Of a stretch of DNA of 34,353 bases, positions 8,824 to 34,353 are shown in pieces. Under the pieces are notes generated by a model that was not told the DNA's origin, ran no database searches, and worked only from the letters and a program-made list of their open reading frames with translations. Source of the stretch: an uncultured Bacteroidota bacterium (GTDB lineage Bacteria > Bacteroidota > Bacteroidia > Chitinophagales > Chitinophagaceae); assembly GCA_903874055.1 (NCBI GenBank), contig CAIQQR010000099.1:1-34353 (forward strand), written 5' to 3'. The first letter of the stretch is position 1. Every line of letters starts with the position of its first letter. Both the position numbers and the translations under genes were made by a program.

Positions 8824-8916
8824 TTGTGTCTATGATTTTAAGATGATAGCCACATTAAGTTTACTACAGCCTTACGGGGCAGTTCGCTTCATGTTACGGC
8901 ATGAAAATTATGGAGG

Positions 8917-32964: not shown

Positions 32965-33657
32965 ATGTCATTGACTAAAAAAAGAAAAGCGGTGGTTGCA
33001 AAGGTGGATAAGAATAAATTTTATTCCCTTAAAGATGCATCTGCATTAGTAAAAGAAATTAACTGTACAAAGTTTGATAGCTCTGTAGATTTACATATTC
33101 GTTTAGGAGTAGATCCTAAAAAAGCAGACCAACAAGTTCGTGGTACTGTTTCTTTACCTCACGGTACTGGTCGTACAAAAAAAGTATTAGTACTTTGTAC
33201 TCCAGATAAAGAAGCAGCAGCAAGAGAAGCAGGTGCTGACTATGTAGGTTTAGATGAGTTCGTAGCTAAAATTGAAGGTGGTTGGGTAGATATGGATGTT
33301 ATCATCGCTACTCCAGCTGTAATGCCTAAAATTGGTAAATTAGGTAAAGTATTAGGACCACGTAACTTAATGCCAAACCCTAAAACTGGTACTGTAACAA
33401 ATGATGTTGCAGCTGCAGTAAACGAAGTAAAAGGGGGTAAGATTGCATTTAAAGTTGACAAAGCTGGTATCGTTCACGCATCAATTGGTCGTGTATCTTT
33501 CTCTGCAGAAAAAATTGCAGAAAACAGTGCTGAATTAATTAATGCGATCATTAAATTGAAACCTTCTGCATCTAAAGGAACTTATTTGAAAGGTGCAAGC
33601 ATGGCTTCTACAATGAGTGCAGGTATTGCATTAGAAACTAAATCATTAATCAACTAG
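32965..33657 (+). CDS. rplA: 50S ribosomal protein uL1
   Basis: L1 stalk protein that assists release of deacylated tRNA, 230 residues. Domain I carries [21 protein letters not shown] and the central domain has [20 protein letters not shown]. The conserved block around [25 protein letters not shown] is present (residues about 115-138). In other bacteria L1 also represses its own operon. It is followed by a 49-bp gap containing a likely kink-turn. Confidence 0.97.
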
Positions 33658-33658
33658 T

Positions 33659-33687
33659 CCTGGTGATCCGAAAGGAAATGACCCAGG
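33659..33687 (+). promoter_or_regulatory. Kink-turn in the rplJ leader, candidate L10 autoregulatory site
   Basis: The sequence fits a kink-turn base by base. The outer stem is CCTGG (33659-33663)/CCAGG (33683-33687), followed by a C-U opposition (T33664, C33682). Tandem sheared pairs A33681-G33665 and G33680-A33666 come next, with the 3-nt bulge AAT (33677-33679). The inner stem is TCC/GGA (33667-33669, 33674-33676), closed by the GAAA loop (33670-33673). The L10-L12 complex is known to bind a kink-turn in the rplJ leader and in 23S helix 42. The motif ends 19 nt before the rplJ ATG. Confidence 0.72.
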
Positions 33688-33706
33688 TAATTAAATAAAA
33701 TTAGTT

Positions 33707-34315
33707 ATGACCAAAGATCAAAAAAACGAAGTGATTGAAATCCTTAAAGGAAAATTCAGTCAATATAATAACTTCTATATCACAGACACAGAATCTTTGA
33801 GCGTAGAACAAATCTCTAATTTACGTCGTTCTTGTTTTAACAAGGAAGTAGAAATGAAAGTGGCAAAAAACACTTTAATTCGTAAAGCATTAGAAGGTTT
33901 AGATAGCGAAAAGTATTCAGGTTTGTTCGATTCATTGAACAATGTAACTGCATTGATGTTCTCTGAAAATCCTAAAGATCCAGCAGTGATTCTTAGTGCG
34001 TTCAGAAAAGCAAATGCAGGCGATAGACCAACATTGAAAGCAGCTTTCATTAATGGCGATATTTTTGTAGGGGATGCATCATTAGTAGCATTAACAAATA
34101 TCAAAACTAAAAACGAGCTTATCGGTGAAGTTCTTGGATTGTTACAATCTCCAGCTAAGCGCGTAATTGCAGCTTTATTAAACCACGCCGAAAACGGTTC
34201 TTCTGCAACTGAGACAGAAGTAGTAGCAGCAGCGGTTGAAGTAGCAGTAGCGGAAACTCCAGCAGAAGCTCCAGCAGTTGAAGCAGCGGCTCCGGAAGCA
34301 GCTCCTGAAGCATAG
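33707..34315 (+). CDS. rplJ: 50S ribosomal protein uL10
   Basis: Base of the L12 stalk, 202 residues. The N-terminal rRNA-binding domain (MTKDQKNEVIEILKGKFSQYNNFYITDTESLSVEQISNLRR) and a helical C-terminal segment that docks L12 dimers (ELIGEVLGLLQSPAKRVIAALLNHA) are typical. A Glu/Ala/Pro-rich tail (about 165-202) extends beyond the usual length of roughly 165-175, a feature I have seen described for this phylum but cannot date here. rplL is expected after it; the 38 bases left in the window hold no start for it. Confidence 0.95.
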   Translation: MTKDQKNEVIEILKGKFSQYNNFYITDTESLSVEQISNLRRSCFNKEVEMKVAKNTLIRKALEGLDSEKYSGLFDSLNNVTALMFSENPKDPAVILSAFRKANAGDRPTLKAAFINGDIFVGDASLVALTNIKTKNELIGEVLGLLQSPAKRVIAALLNHAENGSSATETEVVAAAVEVAVAETPAEAPAVEAAAPEAAPEA

Positions 34316-34353
34316 TTGTAAACCTTGTGATGAGAGAGGAAATTTTCATCAAA

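Follow-up and report, generated by a model that had tools for sequence, protein, structure and literature searches.

Does the short hairpin lying between rplA and rplJ in this Chitinophagaceae genome control the synthesis of ribosomal protein L10, and if so through which ligand and by which mechanism? Control of the stalk genes by the L10(L12)4 complex is textbook knowledge, and the window (the whole stretch of DNA analysed here, 34,353 nt) carries in its 49-nt rplA–rplJ gap a kink-turn whose coordinates, lengths and 19-nt spacing, as given in an earlier sequence-only reading, are exact on re-reading the sequence.

Parts and position of the hairpin

The 29-nt element (plus strand) reads CCUGG-U-GA-UCC-GAAA-GGA-AAU-GA-C-CCAGG, starting 1 nt past the rplA stop codon (33655–33657) and ending 19 nt ahead of the rplJ ATG (33707). 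The features of the locus, all on the plus strand, are:

32965–33657, plus strand: rplA (L1), gene name from the sequence-only reading and protein inspection
33659–33687, plus strand: whole kink-turn hairpin, from sequence; match to its own covariance model at 43.2 bits, E 2.6e-8, the window being among the model's 37 training rows
33659–33663, plus strand: 5' strand of the NC (outer) helix, CCUGG, the non-bulged strand; covarying pairs
33664, plus strand: position 3n (U), facing 3b (C); from sequence
33665–33666, plus strand: G2n and A1n of the tandem sheared pairs; from sequence
33667–33676, plus strand: C (inner) helix UCC/GGA with GAAA tetraloop; from sequence, and covariation in longer relatives
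33677–33679, plus strand: three-nucleotide bulge L1–L3 (AAU) on the 3' strand; L3 = U in 60/60 leaders
33680–33681, plus strand: G1b and A2b of the tandem sheared pairs; from sequence
33682, plus strand: position 3b (C); from sequence
33683–33687, plus strand: 3' strand of the NC (outer) helix, CCAGG; covarying pairs
33688–33706, plus strand: presumed initiation region, 19 nt, A/U-rich, from the kink-turn to the rplJ ATG
33707–34315, plus strand: rplJ (L10), the presumed regulated gene; PF00466, E 3.9e-24
34316–34353, plus strand: first 38 nt of the rplJ–rplL gap, then the contig end

By the definition of a standard kink-turn in the available part of PMC5061560 the element belongs to this class, with a 3-nt bulge followed by G•A and A•G pairs between the C and NC helices. 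All parts named by the sequence-only reading are present; what it missed is the unpaired U•C step (3n•3b) beside the G•A pairs.

The case for a kink-turn rests on comparative evidence, thermodynamics by itself being weak: minimum-energy z-scores are −1.75 for the 29-nt element and −0.50 for its 91-nt context. A loose descriptor finds 14 sites on both strands of the 34-kb window (eight plus, six minus) and is thus unspecific on its own, and under a strict one (G+C-rich, five or more outer pairs, no more than one G-U) this is the sole plus-strand site and a single minus-strand site remains, the latter with a long apical part. When the 49-nt gap is shuffled 20,000 times with its dinucleotides preserved, 20 of the shuffles give any such kink-turn (outer helix at least 4 bp, inner at least 3 bp) and three give one with at least five outer pairs and no G-U.

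Covariation, spacing and distribution of the rplJ element

A scan of genome contigs for the L10 protein, of which the best 80 loci were kept (mostly Chitinophagaceae), gives 45 rplJ leaders that match a descriptor demanding an outer helix of at least 4 bp, G•A pairs, a 3-nt bulge and an inner helix of at least 3 bp; in a further leader (L059) the kink-turn has one inner-helix mismatch and is recognized by eye and by model match. A draw of 147 genomes from the family, 138 of them with an L10 match, was reduced to one region per genus (80 genera), and the descriptor is matched in 16 of these, or in 14 after L209 and L213, which have neither sequence nor place in common with the others, are dropped as chance. 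By the same descriptor the element appears in 0 of the 80 genomes, including 0/6 of the same family, that were taken one per genus from a phylum draw (148 genomes, 146 with L10). The total set comprises 60 leaders including the window, with 46 distinct cores; since the descriptor requires G•A pairs, these are bound to be invariant among the leaders chosen, and the selection biases the first pairs toward pairing without fixing their letters.

For an alignment of 25 hand-chosen leaders with flanks (24 of the 60 plus L059; alignment A1), RNAalifold returns exactly the two helices, separated by 3 unpaired nucleotides on the 5' side and 6 on the 3' side, which are the lengths that a kink-turn needs. 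Both helices strongly covary in an alignment of 37 of the 46 distinct cores (A2), as the sequence-only reading had proposed to check: 97.4% of cells are paired, two-sided changes occur in 8 of the 11 pairs, double-change cells number 75 against 20.4 in shuffles, and the covariation score is 0.499 as opposed to at most 0.195 when slid. The two outermost C-G pairs are invariant, the innermost outer pair is swapped from G-C to U-A in 7/37, and the inner helix covaries in those relatives where it is longer.

Several traits outside the pairing are equally regular. The U at L3 was not among the descriptor's demands; the distance from the kink-turn to the rplJ ATG is 16–21 nt throughout the 60 leaders (19 nt in 32), and the letters of an rplA stop codon, taken without regard to frame, end 0–2 nt before the NC helix in 60/60. 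At 3n•3b the leaders have U•C (48), G•A (8), C•C (3) or U•U (1). A 3b•3n position that is not Watson-Crick and has 3b=C or 3n=G favours ion-induced folding of kink-turns, as stated in the accessible portions of PMC8191799 and PMC4382518; 3b=C or 3n=G holds in 59/60 leaders (the exception being the U•U of L032) and a Watson-Crick 3b•3n in none, and the rplJ-leader kink-turn is accordingly predicted, by the rule of PMC8191799, to belong to those kink-turns that metal ions can fold.

A covariance model (R1) built from 37 distinct leaders and searched in the 147 family genomes matches 23 of them at E≤2.4e-4, and all 23 matches end 14–19 nt (model flanks included) upstream of the L10 match of the same genome; eight of the 23 genomes had no part in building the model, and the next match (E 0.006) lies on a contig other than that of rplJ. 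In 395 genomes of the class, a large search of the kind in which stricter filters lose weak matches, four matches reach E 0.05, and only those of the window's genome and of one further genome of its genus lie at rplJ. The two in other families (L262 and L263; E 0.01 and 0.036) sit in 3-kb loci that lack an L10 gene. The suggested covariance-model search thus bears out specificity for rplJ within the family (23/23), but in the wider class its matches at rplJ are only those of the window's genus.

These data support a genuine kink-turn that is kept by covariation and specific to rplJ leaders. A chance or neutral hairpin, for which the modest single-sequence z-scores and the many loose-descriptor sites in the window could be invoked, is hardly credible and, at the level of sequence comparison, already refuted by the covariation of distinct cores, the fixed spacing and the specificity of the model.

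Within the genomes sampled, the rplJ element is confined to some of the Chitinophagaceae. A quick tree built from rplK-rplA-rplJ (81 rows) accounts for its presence with 5 changes, where shuffled labels need 26, and the element occurs in 40 of the 43 rows of a Sediminibacterium-type clade as well as in seven deeper rows. Loss of the motif in relatives, named beforehand as evidence that would speak against it, is rare, the rplJ leaders without motif in or beside the clade being those of L040, L052, L058 and L080. The suggested role of the element as a phylum-wide minimal form does not hold up, given 0/80 phylum-draw genomes and, at rplJ, only the window's genus among the 395 class genomes; compactness is likewise no phylum trait. 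A 3-bp inner helix with a GNRA loop is seen in the window and its 19 nearest loci (20/20; GAAA 8, GCAA 9, GUAA 3), and the inner helix spans 3–11 counted base pairs across the family, so that the compact form belongs to that one subclade.

A pair of loci in this group differs sharply at rplJ. L058 and L050 are identical at 542 of 545 compared positions of L11-L1-L10, and both have the kink-turn before rplL described below, but rplJ is preceded in L050 by a long-stem kink-turn and in L058 by a plain hairpin, a contrast that, judging from these sequences, is a very recent loss (or gain) of the rplJ kink-turn.

A second kink-turn before rplL

A kink-turn of the same build, first seen in a control descriptor scan, lies in the rplJ–rplL gap of many loci. 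This gap is readable in 78 of the best 80 loci, and 70 of the 78 match a descriptor with an inner helix of at least 2 bp; the element stands 14–16 nt before rplL in 69 of these 70, with G•A at 3n•3b in 70/70 and U at L3 in 68/70. A second covariance model (R2), built on 51 of the 55 distinct rplL-element cores, matches seven of the remaining eight loci (L059 weakly, E 0.014), giving 77/78 in total; in L070 the element was found neither by the descriptor nor by R2. Its paired strands occur as CCGCC/GGCGG, CCGUC/GACGG, CCGUU/AACGG and CCGCU/AGCGG, and its covariation is strong, with 119 double-change cells against 46.6 in shuffles and 84.9% of cells paired, although neither the number of two-sided pairs nor the number of pair types exceeds that of shuffles.

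Among 39 further genomes the rplL element is present in 3/5 of the same family and 0/34 others; a descriptor match before rplL in L310 was discarded as chance, having different letters, a position 2 nt before the ATG and no model match. Because the contig ends 38 nt after rplJ, the rplL gap cannot be read in the window, but its closest relatives (e.g., L001 and L002) carry the rplL kink-turn, and in near relatives both genes of the L10(L12)4 complex therefore carry one kink-turn each, as in Sediminibacterium magnilacihabitans (L076). Outside the family, where neither kink-turn was found in the sampled genomes, L10 must be controlled otherwise.

The rplJ–rplL gap shows two further patterns. Upstream of the rplL kink-turn (e.g., in L022, L036 and L045) lies CCCAGGCCUGAGGG..AAAGGC, a possible H-type pseudoknot (CCC/GGG with GCC/GGC) whose strict pattern is present in 22/77 loci, and a run of at least six T occurs within the last 90 nt of the gap in 70/77 loci.

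Likeness to 23S helix 42 and predicted role in L10 control

For comparison with the ribosome, helix 42 (H42) was read in seven 23S genes of relatives, the source assembly having yielded no 23S gene. Six of them have GAUUUC or GACUUC followed by UAUAACAGCCAGG, with CACUGGUCGAGAG as the opposite strand, and the seventh (L082) has UAUGACAGCUAGG and CACUAGUCGAGUG; the corresponding leader strands are AAUGAC-CCAGG and CCUGGU-GAUCC. Common to both are the NC strands CUGG(U)..GA and AU.AC..CCAGG, L3 = U and 3b = C. The connectivity, in contrast, is swapped: read as a kink-turn, H42 has its bulge (UAU) on the 5' strand, its C helix outside and its NC helix inside toward H43/H44, whereas the leader carries its bulge on the 3' strand and has the NC helix as the outer one, i.e., the strands are joined at the other end. 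Position 1b also differs, being A instead of G in 6/7 H42 sequences. By inspection, letter kinship to H42 appears clear for the U•C form of the rplJ element and weak for its G•A form and for the rplL form; since the NC sequences of the latter two are unlike H42, in which 1b is mostly A, it would be the fold and not the letters that is consistently imitated. The genomes of L062 and L065, two of the six, have the same H42 and no rplJ element.

Kink-turns in rplJL leaders of Geobacillus stearothermophilus and B. subtilis and in 23S rRNA are bound by L10(L12)4, and L10 kink-turn leaders are widespread (Fusobacteria, Actinobacteria, Cyanobacteria, Chloroflexi), according to the available text of PMC4538822 and PMC10931766; an L10 leader is also named in Fusobacterium (PMC7160235) and a candidate leader before L10 in Cardiobacterium (PMC8040213). 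The Rfam family L10_leader (RF00557) likewise lies upstream of rplJ with L10(L12)4 as presumed ligand, and its consensus UACC-GAA-GA-C-A ... C-GA-GGUA can be read as a kink-turn, but it spans 138 positions as opposed to 29 nt here and has the bulge on the 5' strand and the C helix outside, as read from the letters of a helix left unpaired in the Rfam structure line shown. RF00557 has no match in the rplA–rplJ gap even at E≤10, and it exceeds its cut-off in 0/247 Bacteroidota genomes (117 with matches at E≤1), a threshold to be read knowing that the known E. coli leader itself scores only 13.7 bits. The pairs shown for the best match (L089) form a terminator-like hairpin, and the remaining matches were taken as noise.

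In E. coli, the rplA–rplJ gap contains, read by eye, a kink-turn-like CCGUC-GAA-GAC-CGCAGG ... CCUGCG-UA-GACGG with the bulge on the strand opposite to that here, and the gap is 412 nt long, placing the site far from the start codon (19 nt here). Translational control by uL10 through this kink-turn leader is described in the accessible part of PMC10931766, where direct competition is held to be unlikely given that distance. Both the RF00557 consensus and the E. coli leader appear to have 23S connectivity; a strict search (at least four plus at least four pairs) for such a kink-turn with a 5'-strand bulge found none in 241 rplJ leaders.

Ribosomal leaders of the same logic have been published for Bacteroidetes (L13, S4 and S15, in the portion of PMC7247131 available), among 20 new ribosomal leaders in whose main text the terms L10, rplJ and kink are absent. 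The literature covered, which includes few subscription journals, gave no Bacteroidota L10/L12 leader and no permuted L10 kink-turn. In Rfam 15, the rplJ-leader element has no match, nothing but tRNAs exceeds the thresholds in six loci that carry the rplL element, and nothing relevant lies near one rplL element.

The rplJ kink-turn is most sensibly regarded as a candidate target of L10(L12)4. It lies in an rplJ/rplJL leader and, in relatives, also precedes rplL, and by inspection it is an H42-like kink-turn, albeit of permuted connectivity. The sequence-only reading had proposed this ligand; covariation and rplJ specificity lend weight to the proposal, and the swapped connectivity and the rplL kink-turn, which lies outside the window, had escaped it. 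As the hairpin resembles the ribosome's docking site for L10, the cell probably uses it to stop L10 production when sufficient. The 29-nt hairpin is predicted, with good but not full confidence, to be an autorepression site at which L10(L12)4 blocks rplJ initiation directly, an H42 mimic with a sister before rplL in near relatives that would act likewise; the ligand, repression as the outcome and the direct block are all three what we infer.

In this mechanism, the mRNA kink-turn would imitate in cis the kink-turn of 23S helix 42; L10(L12)4 in excess over free 23S rRNA would bind the hairpin, and the bound complex would bar 30S subunits from the A/U-rich initiation region and thereby lower rplJ translation. 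In nearly all near relatives the rplL kink-turn would let this complex control L12 separately. Bacteroidota ribosomes sequester the anti-Shine-Dalgarno, according to a reference title cited in PMC10931766. Direct blocking is the simplest mechanism because no terminator-like site is seen in 33500–33900 and the kink-turn, 19 nt from the ATG, is within 30S-footprint reach of a bound complex; since it begins 1 nt past the rplA stop codon, ribosomes ending rplA should open the hairpin. Known leaders also require a UAA element near the kink-turn for L10(L12)4 (available part of PMC4538822). None is evident in the window: the place that in most relatives holds UAA reads UAG here, and because that UAA is their rplA stop codon, its conservation is uninformative. 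Counting against an L10(L12)4 site are the connectivity reversed relative to H42, the absence of the element from most of the family (present in 14/80 genera) and from the four loci in or beside the clade.

The same ligand might act differently, by breaking translational coupling from rplA to rplJ: bound L10(L12)4 would lock an outer AACUAG/UUAGUU pairing that ribosomes ending rplA normally open, passing on to rplJ. This is unlikely, though it has points in its favour, namely that the minimum-energy fold of 33630–33720 pairs AACUAG (33652–33657) with UUAGUU (33701–33706) just before the ATG, that this pairing can form in 94.7% of A1 cells, and that the rplA stop letters keep within 2 nt of the NC helix. 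That fold is, however, unfaithful, as it partly pairs the kink-turn core as U-A and A-U; compensatory change is found in 0/6 pairs, eight cells are unpaired, the 5' strand is fixed anyway as the Asn-stop codons of rplA, and two pairs are lost in those leaders that have GAUCAGAU ahead of the ATG. Being nearly always possible yet without compensatory change, the pairing is kept only as a rival.

Another ligand is improbable: kink-turns do bind L7Ae-family proteins (PMC5061560, in the part available), and the hairpin could be a site for such a protein (L7Ae/YbxF-type) or a mere mRNA stability element, but all 23 strong matches precede rplJ and the sister element precedes rplL, which points to the stalk complex itself. 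Very improbable, too, is a part in a transcription attenuator like that of B. subtilis rplJL, where L10(L12)4 acts by attenuation (PMC4538822, available text). In several relatives the hairpin is followed by a short U-run (GGGUUUUU), but the window has UAAUUAAAUAAAA instead of a U-run there and 0 terminator-like sites in 33500–33900, and its 49-nt gap leaves little room for rival antiterminator folds.

Direct repression by L10(L12)4 can be extended to a circuit evolved in Chitinophagaceae, in which two small strand-swapped H42 mimics, 16–21 nt before rplJ and 14–16 nt before rplL, each directly repress their own gene; this fuller version has about an even chance of being right. If true, it would be a third stalk-operon mechanism, next to attenuation in Bacillus and the distant leader site of E. 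coli, and an rRNA mimic that keeps the fold and reverses the backbone connectivity (circular permutation). At 29 nt, and 19 nt from the start codon, the site is small enough for base-by-base dissection, and it would reveal the least RNA with which L10 can make do. The swapped connectivity probes whether the kink is all that L10 recognizes or whether RNA past the NC helix counts as well, and a site before rplL would offer a means of adjusting L10 and L12 to their 1:4 ratio.

Other leaders and RNAs were seen in the course of the comparison. The rplA–rplJ gap of other Bacteroidota classes contains a conserved UUACGCACU..GCUUC element (e.g., in L129, L135, L145, L156, L164, L171 and L178), without Rfam match in 10 loci. 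The string TTACGCACT occurs in the last 130 nt of the rplJ leader in 22/53 genomes of other classes as opposed to 0/107 of the window's class, and before rplL in 6/19 and 1/15, respectively, with reversed control words near background. Both parts in order are found in 23/53 rplJ leaders (last 150 nt) and in five rplL leaders (L292–L296), L300 and L277 having the first part only. Each of the two parts is perfectly complementary, and their order is right for pairing, to the 23S GTPase centre (GAAGC..AGUGCGUAA), where L10 and L11 bind; among the matches listed in a whole-genome pattern search are the antisense strand of 23S, the leaders described here and various scattered sites; the element is possibly an rRNA-sensing leader that would act by base pairing. 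In Chitinophagaceae without the kink-turn (e.g., L182, L211, L241 and L254), AACGC follows soon after the rplA stop and GCGUU abuts the rplJ ATG, and their pairing across the gap may perhaps form another start-codon switch. Elsewhere in the window, a queA RNA (RF03093) lies at 8846–8905 on the minus strand, its 70 bits being over the Rfam threshold.
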